The notes beneath the pieces were generated by a model. That model saw nothing but the letters and a program-made list of their open reading frames with translations, made no database searches and had not been told where the DNA came from. A stretch of DNA of 34,793 bases. Origin: Accumulibacter sp. (GTDB taxonomy: Bacteria > Pseudomonadota > Gammaproteobacteria > Burkholderiales > Rhodocyclaceae). The position numbers were made by a program, and so were the translations under genes. The stretch covers positions 1-34,793 of the forward strand of contig JAISAZ010000091.1 in the NCBI GenBank assembly GCA_031266435.1, read 5' to 3'. This document shows, in pieces, positions 3,237 to 34,793 of this stretch; positions within the stretch are counted from its first letter, which is position 1; the number at the start of each line of letters is the position of its first letter.

Positions 3237-3248
3237 ATCGACGCCTCT

Positions 3249-3725
3249 TTACCGAACGCCCGCGGGACGCGACGGCACTTTCCGCCACCCCGAAGGGCAT
3301 TTGTCGACGTAGGGGTAATAGTTTTTAGACGCCGCGCAGTAATACCAGTAGGTCTCAGCGGGAGCCTGCGCGCGGGCGACGGGCCGCACCGCGACCGTAT
3401 CGACGGGGGCGGCTTCGACCGCAGCGGCTTCGATCGTCGCCTTTTCGATATAGACCGGCGGCGCGCGGTTGATCACGACCGGCGCGTACCCCCCGTAGTA
3501 CGGGTACGGAGAATAGTACGGGGAATAATACGGGTACGCGTACGCCGGACGGTAGGAATGGTAAAACGGCGAAAACAGCGGCATGCCGACGCCGATGCCG
3601 ACGCCGACCCGCACACGCGAGTGCGAGCGATGATGGCCTCTCCTCGCCCACGCCGCGTCGCTCGTGAACGCGAAAACGGCGACGAGCGCCAGCAAACCGT
3701 ATTTGAAGCCTTTTGCGAATTTCAT
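3249..3725 (-). CDS. Exported protein with C-terminal WYYC motif, short paralogue
   Basis: Predicted exported protein of 158 residues. I chose ATG 3725 (MKFAKGFKYG) because GAGGTG lies 7 bases upstream and the same start sequence opens the 909-2324 paralogue; an upstream ATG at 3767 has less support. After a signal peptide ending near AWA comes an Arg/His-rich stretch, a Gly/Val segment and a Tyr/Pro-rich region, then an Ala/Val-rich linker. The C-terminus has WYYC, YPYV and CPSGW. It is the first gene of the second copy of a duplicated pair (this gene plus lipoprotein). It lacks the 10-residue repeats and the long Ala/Glu region of the other copy. The function is unknown. Confidence 0.8.
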   Translation of the reverse strand: MKFAKGFKYGLLALVAVFAFTSDAAWARRGHHRSHSRVRVGVGIGVGMPLFSPFYHSYRPAYAYPYYSPYYSPYPYYGGYAPVVINRAPPVYIEKATIEAAAVEAAPVDTVAVRPVARAQAPAETYWYYCAASKNYYPYVDKCPSGWRKVPSRPAGVR

Positions 3726-9506: not shown

Positions 9507-9860
9507 CCGGGCGCGGCCAGCAGGAGACTGCCGCATAGGTTGGGGTGAGCATTGCTACCCCCAACGTTCCGCATGTGCGTGAATGATGGTGGAGATCAAA
9601 CGATGCGCCTTTTCATACCGCCCCGTAATCGTTGTGGCTCTCTCTTCGTTCAGCCCGACCTATAGCGTTTCCGCTCCGTCTTCGGCGGTATAGGTTGGGC
9701 TGAGGAACGAAGCCCAACGTTTCCTCAGGCGAATATCATATGACATATGTCAGGGATCAGATGAAAACCGATCGGTTTTTTATCGCTTTTCCCCGGTGGC
9801 AACGCCGCCGCTAACTGATCTGTCCTCTGTCCTCTGTCTCCTGTCTTCTGATCCCTGTCC
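9507..9860. other. Repeat-filled intergenic region
   Basis: No gene seen. It holds REP-like hairpins (9535-9571 and the paired element 9633-9725) and a minus-oriented composite element running to 9861. Confidence 0.6.
9633..9725. repeat. Paired REP (BIME-like) element, copy 1
   Basis: GTTGTGGCTCTC, then CCGACCTATAGC and a GTTTCCGCTCCGTCTTC centre, then GGTATAGGTTGGGCT and AGCCCAACGTTTCC. Its centre is nearly the reverse complement of 16141-16200, so the two loci carry the same dimeric element in opposite orientation. Confidence 0.6.
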
Positions 9861-13480: not shown

Positions 13481-15640
13481 CTACTTCCCTCCCATGAGGT
13501 AGCGCACCGACAAGAGGACGTTGCGCGGCATCCCATAGACATTTCCGCCCATCGTGCCCGAAGAACTGATGCTCTGGTAGTAGGTCTTGTCGAAAAGGTT
13601 GTTGACATTCAGTTGAAGGTCGACGTCCCGGCTGATCCGATAGCCCGCGATCAGATCGACAACGGCATACGAATCCTGTCTGGAATTGAATCCTACGCTT
13701 TTGTAGTAGGTTTCGTTCTGCCAGTAGACGTTGCCGCCGACGCGCCATTGTCCTCCGGGAAGCCGGTACATCGTCGCCGCTTTGAACAGGTGGCGCGGCA
13801 GATAGGTATCCGCGCGATTGCCCTCGTTCGCCGGCGTGGCGTCCTTTTTGATTTTCTTGTCGACAAAAGTATAGCCCGCCGAAACCTGCCAGTTCGACGT
13901 CAGCGCGCCCTGGACTTCGACGTCGACGCCCTGGCTGCGCACGAGTCCCGCCGCGCGGTAGCAGGTCACGGCGGGAGCGGTAGGACAAACGGTTTGGTCG
14001 TAGAGACGCATCGCGATGTCTTTTTGATCGACGCGGAAAATGGCGACGCTCGTATTCAGCGCGCCGTTGAAATACTTGCCCTTCACGCCGACTTCGTAGT
14101 TCTTCCCTATGACGGGGTCGAGAATCTTCCCGGAAACGTCGTAATAGTTCTGCGGTTTGAAGATGTCGGTATAACTCACGTACCCGGCATGGCGGGAGTC
14201 GAAGTCGTAAATCAGCCCAGCGTACTTCGTGAGATTGTTCTTGACGTCATAACCCGTGTCGTTGAGCTTGTTGGTGAATTCGTAGTCGTCGACGCGCGCA
14301 CCGAGGATCAGCTTCAGGGGGTCCGCCAGATTGAGGCGCGTCGTCGCGTAAAAGCTCTTTTGCTTTTCGTTATTGACCATCCTCCACAGACTGAGGTTGA
14401 TGTTGGGCTTCGGCGTCCGCGAATGACTCCAGTTTTCGAGGTCGGCGATACTGCTTCCCATCGGGACGGCGGCATCCCACCCCCCGTAACCGTCGAAATC
14501 GCCGTTGCGGTAAGACGCGCCGAACGCAAGTTCGTGCTTGCGCCCCAAAAGCCGGAACGGTCCGCTCGCGTATCCGTCGTAACTCATGCGCTTGTCTTGA
14601 TAGTGGTACTCGCCGGCGTTCTGGGCGAAATTTCCCGCCGCCGCGGAAACGTAGGTCGCAAGCATCTCGCTTTTTACCTGAACGTAATTCACCGAAAAAT
14701 TGGCTTTCCATTCGTTGTCGAATCGGTGCTCCAGACTGGCGAAATACGATTCGTTCTTGCGATCCCAATAATCCCAGTTGTTCCCAAGATAGGTCGAACG
14801 CGACAGACGAAGGTCCCGACCGTCGGCACCGACCGGCAGCCCGCCCCAGGTAATGCGGTTGTCGTTTCTTTGATTCGTCGCGCTCAGGGTCAGGAGCGTG
14901 CGGCTGCCGAGGTCGGCCTCGGTGATGAGGTAAAAGACCTGCCGCTTGGTCGAAGCGACATCCTGAAACGACTTGTTGTCCTGAAGAGCGACGACGGCGC
15001 GGCCTCGCAGGCTCCCCGTCGGGTTGAACGCGCCGGAAACGTCGACCTCGGTCCCGTAACGATCCCAACTGCCGAGGTTCGCGTTAGCACGCAAGCGAAA
15101 ATCGCGCGTCGGACGCTTGCGGACAAGGTTGATCGCCGCTGCGGGATTCCCCGCACCCTGCGTGAGTCCGGTCGCGCCGCGCACGACCTCAACGCGGTCG
15201 TAAAGCGCCATGTCGGCGACGAGCATATCGCCGCCGTACTGCCCCAGCGTTGCGGGCAGGCCGTCGTAAGTGATGTTGTCGACGGCGAAACCGCGCGAGT
15301 AGAAACGGTCGCGCAAGGGGCCGCCCTGCGCCTTTGAAATCGAAAGACCCGGCGCGTTCTGGACCGCGTCGGCGACCGTCACCATCGCCTGATCCTCGAT
15401 ACGCTGCCGAGTGATGACCGTCACCGACTGCGGCGTCTCATGAATCGGGAGCGGTAACTTGGTCGCCGAACTCATCGACCGCGTCGTATAAGAACCCGAG
15501 CCTTCGGTCGTCTCGGAAACCGCGCTCTCGGTAACGGTTACGACGGGGAGTTCCGCCTCCCGTTCACGCGTCTGCTCCTGCGCAAGCGCCGTGCACGACA
15601 TGAGCGCCAGTGCGCTCCCATAAGCGAGTCGGGCAATCAT
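13481..15640 (-). CDS. TonB-dependent siderophore receptor
   Basis: Outer-membrane receptor of 719 residues for a ferric siderophore, ligand unknown. The start is ATG 15640: MIARLAYGSALALMSCTALAQ is a clean signal peptide with cleavage after AQ. The open frame continues upstream to 15826, but that part reads as noncoding. A TonB-box-like LPVVTVTES follows cleavage. The plug domain (about 55-175) contains ETPQSVTVITRQRIEDQ and YDRVEVVRGATGLTQGAGNP, then the beta-barrel, ending NLFDKTYYQSI and VLLSVRYLMGGK. No secretin/STN signalling domain is present, so it is a plain transporter type. GGGGGAGG followed by a G9 run lies immediately before the ATG. A Fur-like site is 340 bp upstream. Confidence 0.92.
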   Translation of the reverse strand: MIARLAYGSALALMSCTALAQEQTREREAELPVVTVTESAVSETTEGSGSYTTRSMSSATKLPLPIHETPQSVTVITRQRIEDQAMVTVADAVQNAPGLSISKAQGGPLRDRFYSRGFAVDNITYDGLPATLGQYGGDMLVADMALYDRVEVVRGATGLTQGAGNPAAAINLVRKRPTRDFRLRANANLGSWDRYGTEVDVSGAFNPTGSLRGRAVVALQDNKSFQDVASTKRQVFYLITEADLGSRTLLTLSATNQRNDNRITWGGLPVGADGRDLRLSRSTYLGNNWDYWDRKNESYFASLEHRFDNEWKANFSVNYVQVKSEMLATYVSAAAGNFAQNAGEYHYQDKRMSYDGYASGPFRLLGRKHELAFGASYRNGDFDGYGGWDAAVPMGSSIADLENWSHSRTPKPNINLSLWRMVNNEKQKSFYATTRLNLADPLKLILGARVDDYEFTNKLNDTGYDVKNNLTKYAGLIYDFDSRHAGYVSYTDIFKPQNYYDVSGKILDPVIGKNYEVGVKGKYFNGALNTSVAIFRVDQKDIAMRLYDQTVCPTAPAVTCYRAAGLVRSQGVDVEVQGALTSNWQVSAGYTFVDKKIKKDATPANEGNRADTYLPRHLFKAATMYRLPGGQWRVGGNVYWQNETYYKSVGFNSRQDSYAVVDLIAGYRISRDVDLQLNVNNLFDKTYYQSISSSGTMGGNVYGMPRNVLLSVRYLMGGK

Positions 15641-15641
15641 A

Positions 15642-15656
15642 CCCCCCCCCTCCCCC
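15642..15656 (-). promoter_or_regulatory. Poly-G ribosome-binding region of the TonB receptor
   Basis: On the minus strand GGGGG-A-GGGGGGGGG-T precedes the ATG. The nine-G run ends one base before the start codon, so the Shine-Dalgarno sequence and its spacing are made of a homopolymer that could change length by slippage. Confidence 0.6.
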
Positions 15657-15723
15657 GCTATATTATGTCTTATATATTTTATCTCTATTAATATATTATT
15701 CATCAAACCACTCCCTTTAGTTT

Positions 15724-15756
15724 TCGTCAAAAAGCAAAACCCTACTTTTTTGCCTG
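15724..15756. repeat. TCGTCAAAAA repeat, copy 1
   Basis: TCGTCAAAAAGCAAAACCC followed by TACTTTTTTG. A homologous, better-paired copy is at 32235-32267. Function unknown. Confidence 0.45.
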
Positions 15757-15977
15757 CTTGGAAAAGCCATACCGAAACCGCTTCCTTTTCAGAGGCTTCA
15801 TCAGCGGCGGCATCCCCTACTCCCACATCATTTCATTCCAGTTCGCCCCGCTCGACTTCGCCTTGCGGCAGGCAAACACCGTCTGGCGCTCGTGCATCTT
15901 TAAGCGTGAGTAAACTGGAAAAGGAATAAGGCCAATGGCGTTTCGCCACTCTACTCTCGAAACTGAGTAATGTAAAC

Positions 15978-15996
15978 GATAATTAATATTGTTATT
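15978..15996. promoter_or_regulatory. Possible Fur box
   Basis: GATAATTAATATTGTTATT agrees with the classical 19-bp Fur consensus at about 13 positions. It lies about 340 bp from the receptor start, which is far, so this is tentative. Confidence 0.25.
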
Positions 15997-16085
15997 ATTT
16001 TCAGTGTTGACAAGTATGGGTTGAGCCGAATGAAGTGATGCCCTACATTGGAGCGTAACCCGGTGTCCAGCGATTACCTTCGTAG

Positions 16086-16105
16086 GGGGACGGCGCGCCG
16101 TGCCC
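16086..16105. repeat. GC-rich hairpin repeat, copy 3
   Basis: The arms ACGGC and GCCGT extend to GGGG/CCCT ends. Same family as 1-20 and 251-270. Confidence 0.55.
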
Positions 16106-16126
16106 TATCGTCATTCATACGCCTGC

Positions 16127-16221
16127 GGAACGTTGTGGCTCTCGTTCCTCAGTCCAACCTATACCGCCGAGAACGGAGCGGAAACGCTATAGCTGAACGA
16201 ATGTGAGAGCCACAACGTTTC
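16127..16221. repeat. Paired REP (BIME-like) element, copy 2
   Basis: The outer arms AACGTTGTGGCTCTC (16129-16143) and GAGAGCCACAACGTT (16205-16219) are perfect 15-bp inverted repeats. The interior is the reverse complement, with few changes, of 9645-9710. Confidence 0.7.
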
Positions 16222-16236
16222 CGGGGCGGCATGATT

Positions 16237-16368
16237 CAGGAGACAGGGGACAGGAGACAGAGGACAGAAAAATATGCGGCGGCTTCACCGCAGAAAAAGA
16301 CCAACGAAATACCGACCGGTTTTCATCTGATCCCTGATCCCTGACATCTGATTCCTGATCCCTGATGT
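16237..16368 (+). repeat. Composite heptad-hairpin element, copy B
   Basis: Heptads CAGGAGA, CAGGGGA, CAGGAGA, CAGAGGA (16237-16264), a GCGG...CCGC hairpin (16276-16291), an A-rich spacer, ACCGACCGGTTTTC (16311-16324), then heptads CTGATCC, CTGATCC, CTGACAT, CTGATTC, CTGATCC (16327-16361). It abuts a REP copy (16368-16395) and then the prophage remnant. Confidence 0.7.
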
Positions 16369-16395
16369 TGGGCATCGCTGCGCTCACCCCAACCT

Positions 16396-19300
16396 ATGCG
16401 CTCCCCGCCTCCGGGCAGTCCTCCGCCGCCGAACGCGCCGAGACCAGCCCCGCCGACGGACGAATCCCAAGCGCAGCTCGTCGCCGACGAGGAAGAAATG
16501 AATCAGGCGTTGCGGACGCTCGAATTGCAGGACGCGGACCCGGAAGAAAAGGAAGCGGCGTTGTCCATCGTCACGCAGAACGTCGCGGCGCTCGATGCGA
16601 CGCCGACCGAGGTGGGAACGCTCGCGGTCTCCGGGACAGGCGCGCGCGCGGCGGTGAAGGCGATTGCTCCGGAAGCGCGGATTCTTCAGCGCTCCGACGG
16701 CGCGATCGTCGTGGACAAAGCCTCCGCACCCGCAGTGCAGGACGCGATCTCGAACGCGCGGACGATTTGGGGAAGAGAACAGGCGAAACAGAACGTCAGC
16801 GTGACTTTCGACCCGCTCACTTCAAAGCCCGCGAGGACGCCGGAAGCCGCGGTCCCGGGTCCGGCTCCCGCGCCGGTCGAAGCGAGCGTCGCGCCGGTTC
16901 AGGCCGCGCAGAGTGTTCCTGCGCCGGTAAGCCCCGCGCCCTCTGCACCTGCTCCCGCCGCACCCGTAGCGCCGGAACAAGCGGGCGTGCCTGTTTCGAG
17001 TGCAGCGGCTCCGCAGGCCGGGAAGCCGTCGCGTCCTTTGCGGCAAAGAAAACAGACGTACCGCCGCGACCTGGTCGGCGACCTCATCGAACTCGGCGGG
17101 ATTTCGCCTGTGATGGCGCTCGACCTGACCGGCGATACGGCGTTTCATTCCCATTTGCCGGGACTGTTCCGCAAGAGCGGTACGGAAGATCTGAGCGATT
17201 TGAGCGATTTGTTGAACAATTCCGGGCGCGGATGGAATCTTTCAACGGACGGGAACGAACTGGCTGAACTCATCCGGCGCGCAAGCGATGGCGAACGGAT
17301 TGCCTCTCCCGAAGTGATGGAAGAGGAACACGCCGCCGCGCTCGAAGCCGAGGAACGTGACCGGGTGCGCAAGTCGGCAGAAAAGCTGAACCGGAAGCTG
17401 CCCAAAGGCAAGAAAATCCGAACGCGCGGAGTAAAATTCGCAGAGATTGATGCGCGCGTCGACGAGGAAATGGCGAGACGGCGCGAAGACATCCAGAATC
17501 GGCTTGCGCAACGCGACGAGCGGACGCGGGCGCGCTTTCTGGCGGCGATGGAGGAGGCGCGGAGTCTCCTTCCAGAGAAGGTGCTCAAGGAAATCGAGGA
17601 GCGCTTGCTTGAAATCCCCGGCGCGGAAAGCGAAGATAGCGGACGGGATTGGACAGTCAAGGCCCTCCAGCTTGTCAAGAGCGAAATACGAAACGCTTGG
17701 GAAAACTTTGAAAGAGACATCAATGAGTACACCAGAAGCTACCGGGAAGAGCGAGAAGCCCGATCCGCTGAAGAACTTTCGGATGCTTTCTCCCGAAGAC
17801 CAGCAAGCGATCATCAAGATGGTCGCCGCGGAGAAACTGAAAGAAATAGTCAATCGGATGAAGGCGAAGGAAGCCAACAGCCCACCGACTTCGGATTAAG
17901 TTCTCAAAGCGCCGCTGAGGCGCGCGCACAGGCCGAGGCGCGCGACAAAGCAGACGCGAAAGACGCGCCGCCGTCGCGTGAGCAGGTCGACCGCGAGCGC
18001 GAGGCGTTCTCGCTTTCGGGCGAAAGCCAGCCCTCGAACGACCGAACCGGGCGAGCGGCGGCGGGCGGTACGCAGAGCGAGCTGTTCACGCCCGATGGAC
18101 GCGCTTCGTCGGAAAATTCCTCAAAAGCGTCCGGGCCGGATGGAAAAATCCAGGAAGCGGGGAAGAGTGTTCCATCGACCCGTCTCGATGCGGCGCTGGA
18201 TTTGCTGGACGCGGCGACTGGCGGCCTCGGCGTCCCAGACGCCCTGACCGGCCCGGAAAACGCCCGCGCGCGGACGGAAATCGTCGCGGCGCTGACCGGG
18301 CAGAGCGTTGCCGATCTGGAAGCGCATCCCCGGTATCGTTTCATGACTTCTGTTTCCGCTCTCGAAAAGCTGCTCCACGAGGCGGCGGGAATCCGGGGAG
18401 AAGACATCGACGACAGGCGCGCGCGATTCCTTGAGGTTTTCGACGCGCGGGGCGCTTTCCAACAGGCGCAATCCGGCCAGACGCCGGAAGATTCCCAACT
18501 CTTTCAGTCCGGCGACGACCCCTTCCAGCCCGACGCCTACGACGCGCGCGAGTTCGCGGACGCGGTGGAGCGCGTCGCGGCGATGGAGACAGCTCCGCTT
18601 ACAGATTTGATGGTTGGCGATACCCCCGCTGTGCTGCGGGCGATCGGCACACAAGCTTTGCCGATTCAGATGGGTTCGTCGCTGATTCACAAGGCAAGCC
18701 GCCCGGAGGTTCGCGGGCATGAGGTTCCTGTCGATGTTTTGAAGAATCTGCCCTATTTGTTGGCTGATCCAGTCATGGTGTTCGATTCAAGTTCGGAAGC
18801 CGATGGGCTTGTCGTGCTGGTCGAAGCGAAGGACGAAAAGGGCTTTCCGGTAATCGTCACGATTCATCTTGACAGCAAAGGCGCAGGATTCCTTCGCGTG
18901 AACCGTATTACCAGCGTTTACGGCAAAGACAATACAGCGGCCATCCAGAATTGGATGAACGGGAAACTTCGGTATTACAACCAAGAAAAAGCCTCAAGCT
19001 GGCTTCGTGCATCCCGGCTCCAATTGCCGGGTGCGAACACCCTCAAGAGGCTCAATCCAAAGCTTATCACCGACGCGGATATTCAGGCAAGCGATTTCCG
19101 GCAATCCGGCGAGTCCGAAGAAAAAGCCCCAAGCAGGCTTCGTGCAAACCGGCTCCAATCGCCGGAGGCGAACACCCCCAAGAGGCTCGACGCGGAGACT
19201 ACCACCGGCGAGGACGCTCAGGCAAGTCTTTCCGAGCTTCCGAAGGGTTTTTCCGCCGTAGGCCGCGCGGTCGCGGAACAGTTGGGTGAACTAAACATCT

Positions 19301-22300
19301 ACCCTGAAGAGCAGGTCGTCACGTACGCGGCAATGATTGATGCGTTTTACAAGGCGCTCGCGACGCGCGTAAGCGTCCCGATCGAGGAAGTCTGGAAGAA
19401 GTACCCGCTGTCGGTCAAAACATCCGTCTCGGCGCTCGAAGGCGGAGGTTTTTTCGGCCAGACCCCCTCGCTCTCCCCGGCGCAGGCAGAAGTGGCCGCA
19501 TGGCGAAACTCTCTGGACACTTTCCAGAGAACGCTCCGGAACGCTTCGCAGAAAGGCCCGTTAAGCAACAGCCAGAAGAACGCCCTTCCCCCGGCGCGGA
19601 TGAAAACTCCCGCCGCCCTGCGCTACGTCGGCGAAAAAAACAGGACGCTGACACTTTCTGTTGCGATTGCGGAGAAGATACAGGAAAAACATCCTGATGT
19701 TCCTGCGGACGTGTTTCAGAACCTCCCGGCGCTCCTGCACGATCCGCTCTACGTTTATCCCCACACCGACGGCGGTGTGAACGCCGTTATCGACGCGGTG
19801 ACAGAGAAAGGCGAGCCGATTGTCGTCGGCGTCAGGGACGGGAGAATTACGACGGTTATGGCGGTCAACGATACCGCTGGTAAAAAGGGAATCGATGTTC
19901 TGCGCGATCGCGTTGAAGCGGCGCTGCGCACACGTCCGGGAGAGTTCGTCAAAAACACCTACGCCCGAAATTTGAACGCTGAAAACGATGAAGCCCCACC
20001 AAGAAGCGGGGCTTCGGTTGCGGCACCGGTCGGGACCGACCCCCTTAGGATGTTGTTCCGCAACAGGCGCAATGTAGTCCAGCAGCGAAAACTTGTCAAT
20101 GACCTTGGTGAGAATTTCTACCAAAGTCAAGTGCCTGTTTTCCAGCGTTCCGCGAACGACCCGCTCATCGAAGCGTCGAAGCGCTATTTCGGCGTGACGA
20201 CGAATCCAAGGGAAGCGGGTTACGTCCTGCCGGACGGCACCCTGCTGAATCTTTCCGGCAAGCATCAGGCCTCTGGAGACACCGGCTTTTTGAATGACCA
20301 GAGAGAAGTGGATCACGGTGATTTGAGGGGTGAGAACAAAGACGGATTCTCGATGGCAGATTTGTTTGAAACCCGGTCAAACAGTCTGACAGCCGCCATG
20401 TACGAATTCATGGCGCGCACTGGCGCGGTGCGCGTGGATTTCAACGCGAGCGTCGCTGCCGCAATCGGAGAAGTCACGGACGCACAGATTCAGGCGCTTT
20501 CCAGAGGAATGCGCTGGAAGGGAATCATGCTGGATGCCGTCGATTTCAATTATCGTATAGTCGCGGGTGCGGATATCGAAAACGCTTCACCCCTGAAAAT
20601 CCGGCGTTTCTTTGAGAGCGTGAAAGGCAAGGAAGCCCCTCCCGGCGCGCCGTATTTTCAAGACGAATCGCGTTCCGGCGCGTCTTCTGGGCCGCGCGGG
20701 TCGTTCGACCCGAAGAGGGGAATCATTTCTCTGTTCCAGTCTCTGAACAAGTCGACCTTCCTGCACGAGTCGGGGCACGCTTTCCTGACGCTGTACGAGA
20801 ACATCATCGCTGAAGCGCTCGCTTCGGGAACGCCGCTGACGCGCGGCCGGATGCAGATTCAGTCGGATTTCCTCGCGGTGATCCGCTGGGCGGGGTTCGA
20901 CGGTTCGTTCGCCGAATGGCGAAAGCTTTCCGTCGAGCAGAAGCGCCCGTACCACGAGGCGTTTGCAAAGGGCTTCGAGGCGTATTTGCGCGAAGGGAAC
21001 GCACCGACGCCGCAACTGAAGGGAGTCTTCGAGCGCTTCCGGGACTGGCTCCGCGAAGTCTACGCGAGCTTCAAGGATTTGGGGCTGACGAAGGAACTGA
21101 CGCCCGAAGTCCGCGAGATCATGGGAAGAATGCTGACGACGGAAGGCGATGCGAATGCGGACGTTGCGTCTCATCCGTTATCAACAAACAGCGTTGTTGC
21201 TCAAAACACCCCTTCCGGTGAGACACAAACTTCCGGGAAAGCGGAAGATGCTCTACCCGGCGAAGAGACGCAATCGTTCAAGGATACGGAGAAGGCTTAC
21301 GGCGGGAAGAAAGCCTTTGAGCAGGCGAAAGCCGCCGGGAAAACGAAGCTCGACTACAGGCAATGGGTGCAGGTGCGGACGCCGGAGTTCAAGGCGTGGT
21401 TTGGGGATTGGGAGGCGCTGGGAAAGCAAAACGAGTTTGACGCCTTGGTAGAAGAATCGTTTTCGGAAAACGATCCTCGCGGCAAGATGATGATTCGGGA
21501 TGTTACGCCGGAAGAAGTTTCCGAAATTCTCCGCCAGGGTGGCCCCGATGTTTCTGGTATGGCGCATGAGATTTCTGCCGAAGAATTGCGCCATGCCATG
21601 AAACGGCACGGCGACGCTGACGAGGCTGCAAAGAATCCAGGGCATCGTCAGTTGAGCAAGGACGATTTGAAGCTTGTTTTGGCGGTTATCGACGCGCCCA
21701 CAGAGATCACCGTTCGACCTGCCGGACAGAACCGAAGCAGCATCATTTATGGGCGGGATTTCGGAAACGGAAAGATTGAATACGTAGAACGTATATTCGA
21801 GACATCCAACAAGAACAAACCCAGACTGACAACAAGGACAGTCTGGGTTCGTAGCGCGGCGACTGGCGCTGTGACCAGCCCACCGAGGGTTTCTACTCCC
21901 TACCGCAATTCAACCGTACTCTTTTCTGGTGGTCGCGTCAACCCCGATACCGTCTCGAAGGTCGTCGACGAAGAGACCGGGGAACCGAGGGTCGTGTACC
22001 ACGGGACGGATACGGACTTCAGCAAATTCGACCTTTCGAGAGCGAGACAGAACGCGGACATCCCGGCATTCTTTTTTTCCAGCAATGTCGAAGAAGCGCA
22101 GGAGTATGGGCGCGTGGGCAGCTATTTCCTGTCGATCAGGAATCTGAAGGAAGGAAAGCCTCTGTCGAACATGCAGGGGCGAAAAGTCAGGGATGAACTT
22201 GTCGCGCAAGATTTCGACGGGACAGTGGACGAGGAGGAATGGAGTACCGAATACGCCGCCTTCTCCCCCAATCAGATCAAATCCGCGACCGGGAATAACG

Positions 22301-25242
22301 GCGCGTTCTCGCAGGAGAACGACGACATCTACTACCAATCCGATACCCCGGTCGCCAATCCTGCGGCGCAGCCGTCGTATCCTTCTTCGCAGGTCGCGCC
22401 GCCGATCCGCTGGGAAGTGGAACTGCCGGACACGGCGCTCGGGCGGATGATGGATTGGAGAACGATTCAGCTTACGGATCAGTACGTTGACCTGAAGAAT
22501 ATTATCGAGGCGATCAATAAAACCGGAAAGGCGATCGACGAACGCTTCAATCCGTATTCGGCAGAGAACCGGATGCACGCGAAGATGATGCGCGCCATCC
22601 AGGCGTTTGAAGAGAACGAAGAGAAGCCTGTCGTGAACGCGATGAGAGTAGCGGGAATCTCGGTCAAGGAATTGAGCGACTTCCTCATCGCGCGCCATGC
22701 GCCCGAACGAAACGCGGCGATGAAGAACCGCAACCCGAACCGCGGGGAACTCGATGCGCTGATTCTAAGAACGGAAGGGGAATATCTTCGGGAGATTACC
22801 GCTGGAAGGTATAAAGAAGCTACGCCGCTTCTGGAAAAACTCAAGCGCTTGAGGGCGCAGAATCCGTTCTCCGGAACGGAAAAAGAACGGTCGATGCTTT
22901 CCGGGATGAGCGATGCGGACGCGCGGAAGATTCTGGAGACGTGGGCGAACGACAAGCGCGGGAAGAGCATGGAAGCGATCGCGAAGATGATCGACGAAAT
23001 CATTGCCGGGACGCGCGCGTTAGCCTTGGCGTATGGCCTGGAGACGCCGGGGACGATTCTGGCGGCAGAGGAGGCGTACGAGTATTACGTGCCGCTGTTG
23101 CGCGATCTGGAGGAAGCGGAACTGGCGGCTGCGGGTCTGGGCATGGGAGATGGCTTGGGGGTGAGCGGTTCGATGGTGAAGGCGGCGACGGGTTCGCGCA
23201 AGGAAATCGAGAATGTCTTTGCAAATGTTCTCAATGCGCGGGAATCGGTGATCGCACGCGGGGAGAAGAACCTCGTGATGAAGTCGCTCTACGGCCTGGT
23301 GATGGACAATCCGAATCCTGAACTTTGGGCGACGATTCGACCGGAAATGAGTGTGCAAAGAATCAGGAAGCAACTGGCGGAGTCCGGGGCAACAACGGAG
23401 GAAATCAATGATCTGCTGAAAGACGTGACGAAACGGACGATCGACCCAATCACGGGCCTTGCGAAGACGATGCTGAATTCGAACTGGAAGCATCTGCCGA
23501 ATGCGGTACTGCTCCGTCTGGACGGCGAAGACCGCGTGATTCTGTTCAACCGGAAATCAGGCGTTGCAATGCGCCTGGCACTGATTCTGAACGGAAGAGG
23601 GAAAGAATTGGCGTTTGTCTCGTCCAACCAGCTTTTTGATTTGATGGGCATTGGTACGCGCTGGCTGGGAGGAGTGAATACGCAGTACAGCCCGGTCTTC
23701 GGAATTGTAAATTTCGTGCGTGATATTCAATCGGCACTCATCAACATCTCGGATACGGAACTGGATTGGGGAAAGTCAACCAAGGATATTCTGACGTCGA
23801 TCTATGCGGCGCGGGGCGCGCTCTGGGCCGAGGCGCGCGGCAAGGAAGTCAAGGGCGAGATGGCGCAGTACCTCAAAGAGTTCATGGACTCCGGCGCGGA
23901 GACGGGATACCGGGACGCGCTGATGACCATCGAGCAGCGCGTGAAGGCGATCGAGCAGGAAATGCTCGGCAAGGGCGTCCGCAACATGACGGGCGTGAAA
24001 CAGTTGCTCGATTTTGTCTCAGACACAAACGGCGTTGTCGAGAACGCGACGCGCCTTGCGGTGTTCGTCGCGGCGCGCAAGCAAGGCCTGTCGAAGATTC
24101 GCGCGGCGGATATTGCCAAGGATGTGACGGTCAACTTCAACAGGCGCGGCCTGTCGTCCGGCACGATTGCAAATATGTACATGTTCTTCAACGCCAGTGC
24201 GCAAGGGATTGAGAAAACGATTCGGGTACTGTCGGGGCCGAGAGGCAAGAGGATCATCCTGGGCGGTCTGGCGGTCGGCGTCTTGCAAGCCTTACTTGGG
24301 TATGGCGCGGGAGACGACGAGTGGGACGACACGCCGGAGTATGAGAAATCCAAGAACTTCATCATTCCGGTCAAGGTCTTCGGGATTTATCCCAAGATAC
24401 CGATGCCGCTGGGTCTGAATGTTCTGCCGAACATTGGGCGGAACCTCACAGAAATGGCTATCTATCACAACCGGTTTGCGGAGCGGAGCATAAACCTGGC
24501 GCTTTCGATTTTCGATTCGTTCAACCCGCTGGGTGGGCAGTCGTTTACAGGGATGATCATGCCTTCGGTGCTTGATCCTTTTGTGGAACTCAAGGCGAAC
24601 GAAGATGGGTTGGGGCGTCCGATCTACAAGGAAAACTACAATTCGCGGGACAAAAAGCCGGGACATGCGCTAGCGCGGGATGATACTGGAATCATCTGGA
24701 AAAAGATTTCCGAAGGAATCAATCTGGCGTTTGGCGGGAACAAGGACAATCCGGGCCGGGTGAGTCCGCAGCCGGAAGCGATCCGCTACCTCTTCGGAAC
24801 CATGATGGGCGGCATGGGGCGCGACATGGAACGCGCGTGGGACTTTGGCGTAAATTGGGCGAACGATGTTCCGACGCCCGTGAACAGGATTCCGCTCCTT
24901 TCCAGGTTTGCCTTGCAGCCGGACAGCGACGCGGCGGTGCGCCGGAAGTATTCCGCGGCGGTCGAACAGATCAATCAGGCGGAGAACCGTGTGCAGGGAC
25001 AGAGAAGCCGTGGGGAAAAGCCCGAAGCGGACACGGTGCGCATCGGTTCGTATGCGAGGCTGGCGCGGATGTACGCGCGCAACATTGCGAGACTGCGCAA
25101 ACTCCGCGACCGGACGAAGGACACGGACGCGCGCGCGCAGTACGAGGCGCGGATTCTGGACTGGCAGCGCCGGACGATCGAGCTTCTGAAAAAGAAAAGG
25201 GCAGCAGTGATCGAGGACGACGACGAGGACGCGGAAGACTGA
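16396..25242 (+). CDS. Giant phage polyvalent protein
   Basis: One frame of 2948 codons. Such proteins are packaged in phage heads and carry enzymatic domains into the host. In order: a Pro-rich start; an LGGIspvmALDLTGD-type module (about 230-300); a charged coiled-coil region (313-410); a disordered acidic region (440-560); a MuF-C-like domain (735-880) with VLKNLPYLLADPVMVFDS and YGKD; a helical segment with VWKKYPLSV (949-1012); a second MuF-C-like domain (1068-1200); a GYVLPDGTLLNLSGKH module (1253-1415); a zincin peptidase HESGH (1457-1461); KAWFGDW (1666-1672); a BECR3-like nuclease (1721-1820); an ADP-ribosyltransferase-like domain with YHGT (1868-1871); and a long LPD38-like helical C-terminus (2004-2948) with a hydrophobic segment near 2619-2638. 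The first ATG lacks a ribosome site; ATG 16498, preceded by GAGGAAGAA, may be the real start. Domain names are by motif recognition. Confidence 0.85.
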   Translation: MRSPPPGSPPPPNAPRPAPPTDESQAQLVADEEEMNQALRTLELQDADPEEKEAALSIVTQNVAALDATPTEVGTLAVSGTGARAAVKAIAPEARILQRSDGAIVVDKASAPAVQDAISNARTIWGREQAKQNVSVTFDPLTSKPARTPEAAVPGPAPAPVEASVAPVQAAQSVPAPVSPAPSAPAPAAPVAPEQAGVPVSSAAAPQAGKPSRPLRQRKQTYRRDLVGDLIELGGISPVMALDLTGDTAFHSHLPGLFRKSGTEDLSDLSDLLNNSGRGWNLSTDGNELAELIRRASDGERIASPEVMEEEHAAALEAEERDRVRKSAEKLNRKLPKGKKIRTRGVKFAEIDARVDEEMARRREDIQNRLAQRDERTRARFLAAMEEARSLLPEKVLKEIEERLLEIPGAESEDSGRDWTVKALQLVKSEIRNAWENFERDINEYTRSYREEREARSAEELSDAFSRRPASDHQDGRRGETERNSQSDEGEGSQQPTDFGLSSQSAAEARAQAEARDKADAKDAPPSREQVDREREAFSLSGESQPSNDRTGRAAAGGTQSELFTPDGRASSENSSKASGPDGKIQEAGKSVPSTRLDAALDLLDAATGGLGVPDALTGPENARARTEIVAALTGQSVADLEAHPRYRFMTSVSALEKLLHEAAGIRGEDIDDRRARFLEVFDARGAFQQAQSGQTPEDSQLFQSGDDPFQPDAYDAREFADAVERVAAMETAPLTDLMVGDTPAVLRAIGTQALPIQMGSSLIHKASRPEVRGHEVPVDVLKNLPYLLADPVMVFDSSSEADGLVVLVEAKDEKGFPVIVTIHLDSKGAGFLRVNRITSVYGKDNTAAIQNWMNGKLRYYNQEKASSWLRASRLQLPGANTLKRLNPKLITDADIQASDFRQSGESEEKAPSRLRANRLQSPEANTPKRLDAETTTGEDAQASLSELPKGFSAVGRAVAEQLGELNIYPEEQVVTYAAMIDAFYKALATRVSVPIEEVWKKYPLSVKTSVSALEGGGFFGQTPSLSPAQAEVAAWRNSLDTFQRTLRNASQKGPLSNSQKNALPPARMKTPAALRYVGEKNRTLTLSVAIAEKIQEKHPDVPADVFQNLPALLHDPLYVYPHTDGGVNAVIDAVTEKGEPIVVGVRDGRITTVMAVNDTAGKKGIDVLRDRVEAALRTRPGEFVKNTYARNLNAENDEAPPRSGASVAAPVGTDPLRMLFRNRRNVVQQRKLVNDLGENFYQSQVPVFQRSANDPLIEASKRYFGVTTNPREAGYVLPDGTLLNLSGKHQASGDTGFLNDQREVDHGDLRGENKDGFSMADLFETRSNSLTAAMYEFMARTGAVRVDFNASVAAAIGEVTDAQIQALSRGMRWKGIMLDAVDFNYRIVAGADIENASPLKIRRFFESVKGKEAPPGAPYFQDESRSGASSGPRGSFDPKRGIISLFQSLNKSTFLHESGHAFLTLYENIIAEALASGTPLTRGRMQIQSDFLAVIRWAGFDGSFAEWRKLSVEQKRPYHEAFAKGFEAYLREGNAPTPQLKGVFERFRDWLREVYASFKDLGLTKELTPEVREIMGRMLTTEGDANADVASHPLSTNSVVAQNTPSGETQTSGKAEDALPGEETQSFKDTEKAYGGKKAFEQAKAAGKTKLDYRQWVQVRTPEFKAWFGDWEALGKQNEFDALVEESFSENDPRGKMMIRDVTPEEVSEILRQGGPDVSGMAHEISAEELRHAMKRHGDADEAAKNPGHRQLSKDDLKLVLAVIDAPTEITVRPAGQNRSSIIYGRDFGNGKIEYVERIFETSNKNKPRLTTRTVWVRSAATGAVTSPPRVSTPYRNSTVLFSGGRVNPDTVSKVVDEETGEPRVVYHGTDTDFSKFDLSRARQNADIPAFFFSSNVEEAQEYGRVGSYFLSIRNLKEGKPLSNMQGRKVRDELVAQDFDGTVDEEEWSTEYAAFSPNQIKSATGNNGAFSQENDDIYYQSDTPVANPAAQPSYPSSQVAPPIRWEVELPDTALGRMMDWRTIQLTDQYVDLKNIIEAINKTGKAIDERFNPYSAENRMHAKMMRAIQAFEENEEKPVVNAMRVAGISVKELSDFLIARHAPERNAAMKNRNPNRGELDALILRTEGEYLREITAGRYKEATPLLEKLKRLRAQNPFSGTEKERSMLSGMSDADARKILETWANDKRGKSMEAIAKMIDEIIAGTRALALAYGLETPGTILAAEEAYEYYVPLLRDLEEAELAAAGLGMGDGLGVSGSMVKAATGSRKEIENVFANVLNARESVIARGEKNLVMKSLYGLVMDNPNPELWATIRPEMSVQRIRKQLAESGATTEEINDLLKDVTKRTIDPITGLAKTMLNSNWKHLPNAVLLRLDGEDRVILFNRKSGVAMRLALILNGRGKELAFVSSNQLFDLMGIGTRWLGGVNTQYSPVFGIVNFVRDIQSALINISDTELDWGKSTKDILTSIYAARGALWAEARGKEVKGEMAQYLKEFMDSGAETGYRDALMTIEQRVKAIEQEMLGKGVRNMTGVKQLLDFVSDTNGVVENATRLAVFVAARKQGLSKIRAADIAKDVTVNFNRRGLSSGTIANMYMFFNASAQGIEKTIRVLSGPRGKRIILGGLAVGVLQALLGYGAGDDEWDDTPEYEKSKNFIIPVKVFGIYPKIPMPLGLNVLPNIGRNLTEMAIYHNRFAERSINLALSIFDSFNPLGGQSFTGMIMPSVLDPFVELKANEDGLGRPIYKENYNSRDKKPGHALARDDTGIIWKKISEGINLAFGGNKDNPGRVSPQPEAIRYLFGTMMGGMGRDMERAWDFGVNWANDVPTPVNRIPLLSRFALQPDSDAAVRRKYSAAVEQINQAENRVQGQRSRGEKPEADTVRIGSYARLARMYARNIARLRKLRDRTKDTDARAQYEARILDWQRRTIELLKKKRAAVIEDDDEDAED
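17724..17899 (+). CDS. Small overprinted ORF inside the giant gene
   Basis: A 58-codon ORF in the +2 frame relative to the giant gene, starting MSTPEATGKSEKPDPLKNF and continuing through SPEDQQAIIKMVAAEKLK. It is hydrophilic and helical in look. About 65 percent of its third positions are G or C, while the giant frame over the same bases is poor in G/C at third positions (about 40 percent) and rich in AGA, CGA, GGA, AGT and TTA. This suggests that selection has acted on this frame. A GAAAGAGA stretch lies upstream of the ATG. The function is unknown and it could be chance. Confidence 0.45.
18985..19227 (+). repeat. Internal direct repeat of about 108 bp, period 135 bp
   Basis: Copy 1 (18985-19092) and copy 2 (19120-19227) both encode EKAxSxLRAxRLQxPxAN-TxKRL... 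ending DxQAS, 36 codons each with a 9-codon spacer. It lies at the end of the first MuF-C-like domain and keeps the frame. Confidence 0.75.
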
Positions 25243-25243
25243 G

Positions 25244-25335
25244 AAATAGCGACACCCTTTTCAAAGAATAGCGACACCCTTCAAGCCCGCGCCAGAACAG
25301 GCTTTGAGGGGGTTTCAAAGAATGGTGACACCCTT
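25244..25335. repeat. Three copies of an AAAGAATRGYGACACCCTT repeat
   Basis: Copies at 25244-25259, 25263-25281 and 25317-25335, spaced irregularly between the giant gene and the portal fragment. A TCCTT/AAGGA hairpin follows at about 25380-25396. It may be a phage regulatory site or a scar of another element; I cannot decide. Confidence 0.6.
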
Positions 25336-25435
25336 AATGGTGAAACCATTGCACCTATTCTTTTCGATGGTGTAGACAACTCCTTTCCCGAAAGGAAAAG
25401 GTAATTTCGTGCGGAAGTTATCCTTGTGAGGTCGC

Positions 25436-26080
25436 ATGAAAGAGTCTGCCCTTTCGCCATCGGAATACCAACGTTTCGTCCGCGCGTCGCGCCTGCAACC
25501 GGCGTGGCGGCGCGAGGCGGACCGGTGCGCCGACTATTACGACGGGAACCAGATCGACGCCGCGACCGCGCGCCAGCTGGAAGAGCGCGGGCTGGGTCCG
25601 CTGGTAGCAAATGGAATCAAGCCGGTCGTCAACGCGCTCCTCGGCAACGAAGCAAAAACCCGTATGGACTGGCGGGTGCGCGCGGACGACGACGCGCATA
25701 CGGAGATCGCCGAGGCGCTGTCTTCGCACATTGCCGAGGTCGAGCGCGAGACGCGCGCCGATCAGGCGATTTCCGAAGCCTATGCGTGGCAGATCAAGGC
25801 GGGCCTGGGATTCGTCGAGGTCGGGCGTAACCCGGACGTGCTCGGCTATCCGTACCGCGTCGAGGCGGTGCATCGCCGGGAAATCTGGTGGGACTGGTCG
25901 GCAAGAAAGCCCGACCTTTCGGACGCGCAGTGGCTCCCGCTCACCAAATCCCGCACTCCGCACCCCCCTCGCCTTCCGAATCCGAAAAATCAAGAAGACG
26001 CGGCGGTGCGCCCCATATCCTGTCGTATAATCAAAATTCTCATTTCGGAATCGGAAGGCGTAACCCGCAACGGCGCTTGA
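25436..26080 (+). pseudogene. Truncated P22-type phage portal protein
   Basis: N-terminal fragment of a portal protein, the dodecameric ring through which DNA enters and leaves the capsid. Residues 1-167 read as a normal P22-like portal: ADYYDGNQID, VANGIKPVVNALLGNEAKTR, DWRVRADDD, KAGLGFVEV and YPYRVEAVHRREIWWDWSAR. After DAQWL (about 25935) the frame continues for some 48 residues (PLTKSRTPHPP...) that do not resemble a portal and come from neighbouring chromosomal sequence. Full-length homologues are usually over 600 residues, so about three quarters are missing. GAGG lies five bases before the ATG. The break marks the right end of the prophage remnant. Confidence 0.85.
26026..26031 (+). 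promoter_or_regulatory. Candidate -10 box for rquA
   Basis: A perfect TATAAT about 80 bp upstream of the rquA start; no good -35 is seen at the right distance. Confidence 0.3.
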
Positions 26081-27516: not shown

Positions 27517-28212
27517 ATGAAAATCGCCATGCCTTCCGAATCCTGCAAATCCTGCGAATCTTCCGATTCGTCCGATTCATCGGGTACGCCACCCTGCCCT
27601 TCCTTTCCGGTCGACCTCGAATATCTGCGCGCGGCGCTCCTGAAAAAGCCGGGAACCGAGGAGAGAATCGGCGGTCACGGGTGGGATGACGAAAACGCCG
27701 GAAGCGTCGAAAACAGCAGGAAACTCGTTCCCGCGTCGATCATGTTTCCGATCGTCCTGCGCGACGAGGAGCCGCGCGTCCTCTTCACGCGCCGCACCGA
27801 CCACTTGAGGGATCATCCGGGGCAGATCTGTTTTCCCGGCGGACGCGCCGACCCCGGTGACGCTTCCGCCGCGGATACCGCGATCCGCGAAGTGTGGGAG
27901 GAGACGGGGATTCCCGCCGACCGGGTCGAGGTCATCGGCTACCTGCCCGACCGCTGGACGATCACGGGTTTCAGGATCACGCCCGTCGTCGCCCTCGTCC
28001 GACCGCCGTTCGAACTCAAGCCTGACGCTTTTGAAGTCGCCGACATTTTCGAAGCCCCGCTCGCCTTTCTCCTCGACTTGGCGAACCACCATGTCACGCC
28101 GGTGCCGGGTTCGGCGCGTTCGCTCGTTTCCATCCCCTACGGCGAGCGCAATATTTGGGGCGCGACGGCGGGGATCATCCACGCATTTTCGAAGCGTCTC
28201 GCCTCAAAATAA
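27517..28212 (+). CDS. CoA pyrophosphatase-type Nudix hydrolase
   Basis: Nudix hydrolase of 231 residues of the NudL/coenzyme A diphosphatase group, expected to split CoA or its derivatives into phosphopantetheine and 3',5'-ADP. The CoA-specific upstream motif LFTRRTDHLRDHPGQICFPG leads into the Nudix box GGRADPGDASAADTAIREVW and EETGI (108-132) with REVWEETG intact. The N-terminus is odd: residues 5-23 (SESCKSCESSDSSDSSG) come from a 9-bp-period array like the intergenic ones, so the true gene may start later at a non-ATG codon, or the array has been absorbed. No ribosome site is clear; translation may be coupled to the protease gene that ends at 27511. Confidence 0.88.
   Translation: MKIAMPSESCKSCESSDSSDSSGTPPCPSFPVDLEYLRAALLKKPGTEERIGGHGWDDENAGSVENSRKLVPASIMFPIVLRDEEPRVLFTRRTDHLRDHPGQICFPGGRADPGDASAADTAIREVWEETGIPADRVEVIGYLPDRWTITGFRITPVVALVRPPFELKPDAFEVADIFEAPLAFLLDLANHHVTPVPGSARSLVSIPYGERNIWGATAGIIHAFSKRLASK
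27538..27582. repeat. 9-bp-period array within the Nudix N-terminus
   Basis: Units GAATCCTGC, AAATCCTGC, GAATCTTCC, GATTCGTCC and GATTCATCG at exact 9-bp spacing, coding for Ser-Cys/Ser-acidic triplets. Related 9-bp units stand at 31469-31504. Confidence 0.65.
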
Positions 28213-28250
28213 GTCTCCCCCAATTTGCGGAGACGTACTCCACAGTCGGT

Positions 28251-28280
28251 TTGACAAAAGACGTCTGGACGTCATATACT
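28251..28280 (+). promoter_or_regulatory. Strong promoter of the methyltransferase gene
   Basis: TTGACA (28251-28256) and TATACT (28275-28280) with an 18-bp spacer, the best sigma-70 promoter match in the window. The -10 lies between the arms of a 14-bp inverted repeat, so it is likely controlled. Confidence 0.7.
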
Positions 28281-28299
28281 TTCAAGACGTCCAGACGTC
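28260..28299. promoter_or_regulatory. Operator-like inverted repeat with four GACGTC sites
   Basis: GACGTCTGGACGTC (28260-28273) and its exact reverse complement GACGTCCAGACGTC (28286-28299) flank a 12-bp centre holding the -10 box. Each arm itself contains two GACGTC palindromes. A bound protein would block transcription of the methyltransferase. Confidence 0.7.
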
Positions 28300-28365
28300 A
28301 GAATGACTGGATTCAAGAGTGCACAATACATCGATCGTCCGGCTTACGGCATCCAGGGAAAAAAC

Positions 28366-29496
28366 ATGAACGTAAAATTGCCCCCCGGCAGCGTTCGAGA
28401 CGCCATATTTGAGACGCTTTCAAGGTCGGCAAGTCCTGTCAAGATTCAGGATATAGAAATGGAAGTTGGGAGAATCCTCGGACCAACACCGCCATCTTCC
28501 ATCCGTTCTTATCTTCGAATAAACACACCAAAAACTTTCATTCGTGTGAATCGCGGGGTATATGCGCTACGGCAGCAATGGGAGTGTGAAAAACCCAGGC
28601 TTCAGGGGGCGGCGTCATCCATGTTTCGATATGGGAAATCGGAACTTTACAATGAGGATTGTTTTGACTGGCTGAAAGCCCAGCCACCCAATAGTATTCA
28701 TGCCGTGGTGACCGACCCGCCCTATGGACTCGTTGAATACTCCAAAGAAGAACAAGCCAAATTGAAACGTGGCAAAGGCGGCGTCTGGCGCATACCCCCG
28801 TCATTTGACGGGCATACGCGTTCACCTTTGCCGCGATTTACGACTCTCACGTCCGACCAACTGGATGAATTAAGGAGTTTTTTCCGTTTTTTTGGGCACG
28901 TCCTGTCCCCTGTTTTGACACCCGGCGCCCATGTCCTCGTTGCATCCAATCCTCTGCTGTCGTACATCCTTTCCAGCGCGCTTGCAGAAGCCGGACTGGA
29001 ACGACGAGGCGAAATAATACGTTTGACAATGACGATGCGCGGCGGCGACCGCCCAAAAGGCGCTCACAACGAATTCCCGGAGGTAAGCGTCATGCCGCGA
29101 TCGATGTGGGAGCCTTGGGTTATTTTCAGAAAACCGCTTGAGGGCAGGGTTCAAGATAACTTAAAGCGATGGAAAACCGGAGCATTTCGCCGCCCAAGCA
29201 AAGATCATCCATTTTGTGACGTCATCAAATCCAGTCCAACTCGCGGTATCGAGCGCAAGATTGCTCCTCATCCCAGTTTGAAGCCGCAAACTTTTTTACG
29301 CAAAGTTGTCAGAGCGGTCTTGCCTCTGGGCGAAGGCGTCATTTTGGATCCTTTTGCGGGATCAGGCTCCACGCTTTCCGCGGCGGAAGCCATTGGGTAC
29401 AGGAGTATCGGCGTTGAAAAGGATTCGGGCTACTTCCTGATGGCTCGAAAAGCCATCCCCGATCTCGCAAAATATCAAGTGGCGGACGATTTATAA
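28366..29496 (+). CDS. Beta-class DNA methyltransferase with N-terminal winged helix
   Basis: SAM-dependent DNA methyltransferase of 376 residues. Residues 8-65 form a winged-helix-like domain of the HARE-HTH kind (VRDAIFETLSRSASPVKIQDI...RGVYAL). The catalytic motif IV is TDPPYG (DPPY at 117-120), and the SAM-binding motif I DPFAGSGST (328-336) comes after it. This order defines the beta class. DPPY points to adenine-N6 more than cytosine-N4, but either is possible. The start is ATG 28366 with AGGGA seven bases upstream; ATG 28303 has no ribosome site. Its 3' end overlaps the convergent nuclease gene by 22 bp. Base composition is visibly lower in GC than the dap or Nudix genes, consistent with transfer. 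The recognition sequence cannot be read from the protein. Confidence 0.88.
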   Translation: MNVKLPPGSVRDAIFETLSRSASPVKIQDIEMEVGRILGPTPPSSIRSYLRINTPKTFIRVNRGVYALRQQWECEKPRLQGAASSMFRYGKSELYNEDCFDWLKAQPPNSIHAVVTDPPYGLVEYSKEEQAKLKRGKGGVWRIPPSFDGHTRSPLPRFTTLTSDQLDELRSFFRFFGHVLSPVLTPGAHVLVASNPLLSYILSSALAEAGLERRGEIIRLTMTMRGGDRPKGAHNEFPEVSVMPRSMWEPWVIFRKPLEGRVQDNLKRWKTGAFRRPSKDHPFCDVIKSSPTRGIERKIAPHPSLKPQTFLRKVVRAVLPLGEGVILDPFAGSGSTLSAAEAIGYRSIGVEKDSGYFLMARKAIPDLAKYQVADDL

Positions 29497-30083
29497 ATCC
29501 AGTTTTTGCGAAGATTCTCGACTCCGGCCTTGTGCAAAGTTGCCGTTCGGGTTCCAAGTTCTCCCCGTAAATTCTTTCTGAAATCCTCAACGGATACATG
29601 CGCCAGATAGACTTCTGTAAACTTCATGGGCGCACGACTTTTGGCCGGCTCGGACTCGGTGTCCAAAACATATACAAAAACACACATCCATTGATTACGC
29701 GCGCCGTGCGTATCGACCGCGCCCCCGCTTTTCTGCGTGGTCTTGATTTCAACGCCCTCCTCTCCGGCCTTGACGGCATTGTTGGAGTATTTACCTTGGG
29801 GAACCAGGTCGGGATGGCCGTTGAAATACTTGTTTTCTACAAGCGACCTGGAATGACGCGCCAAACTCGAAGTCAGCATATCCGATATCAGCCCGGACAT
29901 AATGGCCGGTCGCAACATGTCATCGAGTCGATAAAGTCCCTTTGCGACAAGTAAAGAATTCACATCGGAAAAAAAGTCATAAATATCCTGCATGGCCATC
30001 TCGAAATCCTTGAGTCTCAACTCATAAGGCAAGACAGCATCTTTGTTGAAGCATCCTTCGTCGGCATTGTTTTCAGTATGCAT
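29475..30083 (-). CDS. Putative type II restriction endonuclease, PD-(D/E)XK fold
   Basis: Protein of 202 residues, convergent with the methyltransferase. A nuclease motif is visible: HPDL (Asp92) followed 20 residues later by EGVEIKTTQ (Glu112-x-Lys114), the spacing and form of a PD-(D/E)XK active site, then a strand-like WMCVFVYVLD. The N-terminal half is helical, with a YDFFSDVNSLLVAKGLYRLDD segment likely used in folding or DNA contact. The start at ATG 30083 follows an AGGGGG only three bases away, so the alternative start at 30146 remains possible. Pairing with a methyltransferase and low-GC composition support a restriction-modification role. I do not recognise the specificity. Confidence 0.7.
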   Translation of the reverse strand: MHTENNADEGCFNKDAVLPYELRLKDFEMAMQDIYDFFSDVNSLLVAKGLYRLDDMLRPAIMSGLISDMLTSSLARHSRSLVENKYFNGHPDLVPQGKYSNNAVKAGEEGVEIKTTQKSGGAVDTHGARNQWMCVFVYVLDTESEPAKSRAPMKFTEVYLAHVSVEDFRKNLRGELGTRTATLHKAGVENLRKNWIYKSSAT

Positions 30084-30207
30084 GCGCCCCCTGTTTTTAC
30101 AATTTCGATCTCTCGAATATCTTAAAACCGCCGTGCAGTATCGCACAGATCAAGTTTGAAACGTGCTTCACAAAACGCGAATTCTCGGCTACTTTTTTGA
30201 TCGGGTC

Positions 30208-34500: not shown

Positions 34501-34793
34501 TCAGGGGACAGAAGACAGGGAACAGGAGACAGATCGGTCAGCGGCGGCGTTGCCGCCAATCAGGTATCAGGTATCAGGAATCAGATGTCAGGAATCAGAT
34601 GTCAGGGATCAGATCGGTCAGCGGCGGCGTTGCCGCCGGAGAAAGATCGTTGAAACACCGATCGGTTTTCTTCTGGAACCGCTGAACAAAGGCGCGAATA
34701 ATTTTAGGCGAGGAAGGAAAAGCGCTAAAAATTGCGATAAACGCGTATTTTTGTAAAAATCGTGCTGAAATTACCCTGTGATTCTCGTTTTTG
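34501..34793. other. Repeat-filled region after pilJ
   Basis: No gene seen up to the window end. It holds composite element copy C, then sequence without recognised structure from about 34680. Confidence 0.55.
34502..34670 (+). repeat. Composite heptad-hairpin element, copy C (with internal duplication)
   Basis: Heptads CAGGGGA, CAGAAGA, CAGGGAA, CAGGAGA (34502-34529); hairpin GGCGGCGTTGCCGCC (34543-34557); eight heptads of CAGGTAT/CAGGAAT/CAGATGT type (34561-34616); a second identical hairpin (34623-34637); an A-rich spacer; then ACCGATCGGTTTTC (34657-34670). The first heptad begins inside the pilJ stop region (TGATCAGG). Confidence 0.7.

Follow-up and report, generated by a model that had tools for sequence, protein, structure and literature searches.

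The window analyzed here is a whole contig of 34,793 bases; the draft genome to which it belongs measures 2.66 Mb in 121 contigs. It carries an intergenic insert, with a TonB-receptor gene on one side and a methyltransferase gene on the other, and one forward-strand frame (16396-25242) dominates this insert. The claim of the original prediction that this frame runs without a stop across 2948 codons is borne out. The frame is the gene of a phage-type polyvalent protein, truncated at its 5' end. The features of the insert and its edges are listed below, with window coordinates and, where one applies, the strand.

16010..16400, host repeat (REP-like) DNA at the left insert edge; matches elsewhere in the own genome, missing at the G030 site
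16396..16398, + strand, ATG of the originally predicted ORF; host-repeat letters, not the phage gene's own start
16396..25242, + strand, giant polyvalent gene, 5'-truncated; 2948 codons, phage DNA from about 16401
18697..18996, + strand, MuF_C (PF18819), best stretch; residues 768-867 (Pfam)
20764..20778, + strand, HESGH, predicted zincin-type metallopeptidase motif; residues 1457-1461 (motif search)
21517..21852, + strand, PBECR3 (PF18812), predicted BECR-fold nuclease; residues 1708-1819 (Pfam)
21973..22308, + strand, ART-PolyVal (PF18760); residues 1860-1971 (Pfam, 1e-19), YHGT at 1868
24253..24309, + strand, hydrophobic segment from residue 2620; the sole segment above threshold
24313..24843, + strand, LPD38 (PF18857); residues 2640-2816 (Pfam, 1.2e-31)
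25243..25435, spacer of 193 bp with three copies of a 19-base repeat, at the site where a terminase is expected
25436..25945, + strand, P22-type portal gene, codons 1-170; beyond them the frame continues in host sequence to 26080
25946..25955, right junction, where G030:C59 homology starts again with AAATCCCGCA

Domains and relatives of the giant protein

The original prediction had read a peptidase, a nuclease-like and an ART-like module from recognized motifs and had proposed a profile search for LPD, MuF_C and PBECR families. Such a search with Pfam returned LPD38, ART-PolyVal, MuF_C (6.8e-34, in two stretches, of which the best one is located in the list) and PBECR3, the last barely above threshold (31.0 bits against a cut-off of 30, compared with 83.9 bits in L101, the relative from genome G031 of the same genus). 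The peptidase stands as a motif: no Pfam peptidase model matched the giant protein, and HESGH is the only peptidase evidence, with HExxH also present at about the aligned place in the relatives L101a and C109a. A single hydrophobic segment near the C-terminal end likewise occurs in L104, L106, L108, and Methanosarcina virus MetMV, and in L106 it immediately precedes LPD38.

Polyvalent proteins were defined by Iyer et al. 2017 (PMC5512222), and LPD38 is listed as phage-type only in the part of that article drawn on here. At least two effector-type domains in one polypeptide, a mark of the phage-type class, are present at Pfam cut-offs (MuF_C twice, PBECR3, ART-PolyVal, and LPD38), as is LPD38 itself, and late or virion gene neighbors are represented by the portal fragment at 25436-25945 only. 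The N-terminal region is not complete, as it would be in an intact member.

The C-terminal third matches large phage proteins of unknown function in PHROGs, best phrog_14770, where residues 1970-2936 align with profile positions 2469-3426 of 3427; NCBIfam gave no match for P0001. Within this third, residues 2021-2635 (22456-24300) are well conserved in phage relatives and drew no Pfam family at the limit applied. The structure predicted for residues 2021-2948 is mostly helical and weak (mean pLDDT 58.7, pTM 0.40), and the search of solved structures matched nothing up to an E-value of 0.01.

A whole-protein scan of IMG/VR yielded 88 relatives, 79 loci of which were kept, with the top-ranked L104 being 34% identical in its best segment. 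In addition, there were 50 loci in reference genomes, 178 records in INPHARED (all below 60% identity), and 13 matches in plasmids. No relative was confirmed when IMG/VR was scanned by peptide pattern with the C-terminal 898 residues.

Giant polyvalent genes occur on three contigs of the own genome (C107, C109, and C89). On C109 the giant-gene sequence lies in two overlapping ORFs of different frame, one of 1354 codons from the contig edge and one of 959, and C89 holds a frame open for 2550 codons between stops, with a PLxRFG domain; the regions extend over 3-6678 of L094 (C109) and 6297-13946 of L095 (C89). In DNA, C109 and the window gene share a 521-bp stretch at 89% identity and 668 bp at 76%, the remainder being unmatched, and this patchiness suggests module exchange. 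In G030, the closest genome found within the genus, the C109 giant region lacks a counterpart at the corresponding place, and homology begins only at L094 7358. At C89, G030 homology ends at 13929 and the G030 locus stops 170 bp further on, which cannot count as an empty site.

Counting the own genome, 3 of the 21 genomes searched, a set without G031 and G033, have the C-terminal part, and 2 of 28 genomes of the genus have the portal piece. Similarity to the G031 and G033 relatives is lost near residue 2628-2629, and the L101 giant gene is split over frames. The giant frame of G010, open for 3165 codons between stops, counts against general decay, and with the open C89 frame it also speaks against reading the window gene as a recent remnant. 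Judging from alignment ends, about 1.6 kb (L101 5622-7239) interrupts the L101 gene; Pfam found nothing in the 490-aa ORF of this interruption, and the next L101 frame reads ...VTDDLIPTHNT near its start, which we take to resemble the end of an intein.

Both edges of the insert are truncated

The left edge lies inside a host repeat. A search with 16005-16440 gave 178 matches in the own genome (the query itself counted), and in five of the six copies fetched the repeat continues through CTATGC, the source of the ATG; the sixth, L210, is without the searched motif. Two more copies, at window 9533 (reverse strand) and L095 15369, also read through the ATG letters. Because repeat copies read through it, the start codon belongs to the host repeat, with phage DNA starting only some bases downstream. 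Abundant REP-like repeats, found on many contigs of this genome and of G030, also have copies at 34580-34675 and 9533-9851 of the window.

Residue 235 of the window protein pairs with residue 702 of L106, an IMG/VR relative of 3088 aa, so by this measure the N-terminus has lost about 470 residues. Residue 35 aligns with residue 129 of L101, which starts at a contig edge, and an N-terminal part is also missing relative to phrog_14770. With this loss, a start codon borrowed from the host, and the expected terminase absent, the gene is not intact, contrary to what had been claimed. The extra N-terminal stretch of L106 looks glycine- and alanine-rich, as might be expected of a virion ejection region.

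An internal ATG at 16498, with GAGGAAGAA before it, could start translation, which counts against reading the insert as a remnant. It bears on the rival explanation that the truncated protein is kept by the host and, from an internal or repeat-borne start, acts in the cell against incoming phages through its nuclease and ART modules. We consider this unlikely: the length of the open frame, the motifs HESGH and YHGT, the three contigs with giant polyvalent genes, and the general theme of host capture proposed by Iyer et al. 2017 (PMC5512222, in the part drawn on here) speak for it, but the gene has lost its own start and N-terminal region, no promoter-like site was found on the forward strand in 15850-16600, one relative (C109) lies in two overlapping frames while those in G031 and G033 lose similarity, and few of the genomes searched carry the C-terminal part.

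On the 3' side, the 19-base repeats of the spacer span 25241-25335, and the first copy begins two bases inside the stop codon of the giant gene; this overlapping copy has three mismatches. The spacer is single copy in its own genome, and a two-fold degenerate form of the repeat matched 1 of 300 genomes of the order, namely this one. As a possible insertion-sequence end, the repeat gained no support, with no exact match in IMG/VR and nothing similar in plasmids.

The portal piece (ORF 25436-26080) matches positions 2-163 of 594 of P22_portal in Pfam, and this family matched nowhere else in the own genome. G030 homology begins at 25946, after 170 portal codons, so that the truncated portal described originally stands with a length slightly above the figure of about 167 codons then given. 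Among the 129 window ORFs of at least 80 aa listed, 19 were scanned with Pfam and two more were added, six being scanned with PHROGs. No phage structure gene other than the giant ORF and the portal piece was recognized in those scanned, in line with the claim that all other phage genes are gone; two transport-type ORFs matched PHROGs families of unknown function.

The portal piece matched five loci in IMG/VR, and L183, L184, L185, and L187 of these were examined, with L186 left out. Their portals are 43-65% identical to the piece, and in 4 of 4 a terminase ORF precedes the portal gene. It adjoins the portal on its 5' side in L184, L187, and L183 (in L183 as a PHROG match, with Pfam below its cut-off), and in L185 one overlapping, unscanned ORF lies between the two. 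L185 has the order LPD38 giant gene, TerL, portal, and neither the N-terminal nor the C-terminal part of the window protein matched its giant gene. In Achromobacter phage CF418P1, an annotated terminase immediately precedes the ORF matching the portal. Since the giant gene and the portal are neighbors in the window and a terminase lies upstream of the portal in these relatives, the order suggests, by way of distant relatives, that a terminase was probably lost between the giant gene and the portal.

Empty site, age, and selection

Of 27 other genomes of the genus searched, G030 matches the right flank best at the DNA level. Where its matches across the flanking genes are longest, identity is 91-94%; beside the junctions the figures are 82% (left) and 92% (right). 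In G030 the site is empty: C59:1-592 corresponds to 15375-16009, and C59:692 onward corresponds to the sequence from 25946, with 99 bp between. No second genome offered a site that could be read in this way: among the matches listed, those to the two flanks fall on separate contigs in G033, and G031 matched the right flank alone. A domesticated gene would be expected to be conserved at its site in sister species, and the remnant that the original prediction proposed to look for in sister genomes is absent from G030, which argues further against retention by the host.

Since both flanks lie on one G030 contig, either the insert is specific to its lineage or G030 has lost it, and misassembly at both ends is unlikely. 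An assembly artifact, in which phage sequence was misjoined to host DNA at repeats, would gain from a left junction inside so abundant a repeat and from the fragmented draft, but with the outer flanks adjoining in G030 it requires two independent false joins at the same gap, and we regard it as very unlikely. A second stretch of the window, 28204-30204, is also absent from G030 (C59 2962 to 3000) and from G033 (C122 2224 to 2371), and it contains an N6/N4 DNA methylase ORF (28303-29496).

To date the insert, dS to G030 was taken over five flanking host genes, the methyltransferase gene being left out. The values are 0.116-0.26 with a mean of about 0.19, which leads to about 0.09 on this branch. 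In a neutral simulation, which counts stops and leaves frameshifts outside the model, the frame is expected to gain about 22 stops at 0.09, 4.8 at 0.018, and 2.4 at 0.009 substitutions per site, and 0, 1, and 8 percent of 400 runs, respectively, stayed free of stops (uniform setting). We observed 0 stops, against the roughly 22 of a neutral frame as old as the split from G030. Therefore, without selection, the insert can have existed for no more than roughly a tenth of the branch, and the open frame fits either such youth or selection, which would equally yield an open frame of this length.

The same number weighs on the possibility that the insert is old and was cleanly lost from G030. That there is a single informative empty site leaves room for it, but so many stops would be expected at that age without selection, and the portal piece is rare in the genus, which makes such a history extremely unlikely. 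Together with the empty site, the absence of stops supports the original suggestion that the event was very recent.

The original prediction had also proposed a dN/dS comparison. Over ten aligned segments between the window gene and same-genus giant genes (L101, C109, and C89), dN/dS is 0.23-0.46, with alignments below 150 residues left out and several dS values above 1. The ratio is below 1 but includes, and mainly reflects, history before capture. A relative-rate count against L101b (17 against 10, p = 0.25) gave no significant acceleration. We also considered decay as the cause of a leave-one-out deviation of 0.375 in the window gene, against 0.066-0.197 in four relatives, and rejected it because the four relatives are more similar to one another than to the window gene and the relative-rate count is not significant.

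Altogether, we judge it highly probable that the insert is a recently captured, edge-truncated fragment of a tailed-phage late region, most likely a remnant that is probably not expressed and whose frame is open through youth. A host function of the giant gene, as had been suggested, is unsupported: the lost start and N-terminal region, the missing forward promoter-like site, and a dN/dS that is mainly pre-capture leave it without positive support. It was a tempting case, as a long open frame without its phage looked host-retained, and it was settled by the empty site and the borrowed start codon, which point to youth and truncation. The three checks used here (origin of the start codon, empty site, expected number of stops) can be reused for other orphan polyvalent genes.

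Proposed history and comparison with known systems

By this account of a recent, truncated capture, a piece of a tailed-phage late region, comprising a giant polyvalent virion/effector gene, a terminase, and a P22-type portal gene, would have become fixed in the intergenic space between the TonB-receptor and methyltransferase genes, with the 5' part of the giant gene, the 3' part of the portal gene, and presumably the terminase being lost. Judging from the domains and from Iyer et al. 2017 (PMC5512222), where, in the part drawn on here, the metallopeptidase is proposed as the processing device of polyvalent proteins, the whole protein would in the phage be packed in the virion, injected, and cut by its own metallopeptidase, and the BECR-type and ART modules would then be released into the host. 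In this bacterium, too little time would have passed for stops to accumulate.

A bolder reading is that, by losing its N-terminal region, a phage effector meant for injection came to act as an anti-phage protein in the cytoplasm, and that the genome gathered its three giant genes (on C107, C109, and C89), in stretches without a counterpart seen in G030, as recurrent anti-phage arming; we hold this to be a long shot. The idea of defense is not new for the class, as host capture of polyvalent proteins from element remnants, with possible use against invaders, was proposed in 2017 (PMC5512222, in the part drawn on here). A literature search on domesticated remnants found no matching paper.

MuF toxins of temperate phages, proposed to be phage-delivered (Jamet et al. 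2017, PMC5576092), resemble the window protein, as far as the part of that article drawn on here describes them, in being multi-domain and tied to the packaging module. In contrast to them, the window protein has MuF_C only, at the C-terminal side of such proteins, and Pfam lists no MuF head-morphogenesis domain for it. L106 and MetMV (3003 aa) are alike over the C-terminal 900 or so residues (34% and 32% identity, respectively), and L106 also has LPD38 and ART-PolyVal; unlike the window protein, L106 keeps its longer N-terminal region, and MuF_C and PBECR3 are unmatched in it.

The polyvalent proteins that Iyer et al. 2017 (PMC5512222) place in host genomes outside selfish elements, the third context in the part of the article drawn on here, are similar in that a giant gene from an element remnant stands amid host genes, whereas the window gene is 5'-truncated, apparently recent, and without a sign of use. 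The phage-type polyvalent proteins of the same source differ from the window gene in having their N-terminal region and a surrounding phage, but they share with it the giant multi-domain architecture, MuF_C/PBECR, ART, HExxH, LPD38, and a neighbor from the packaging module.
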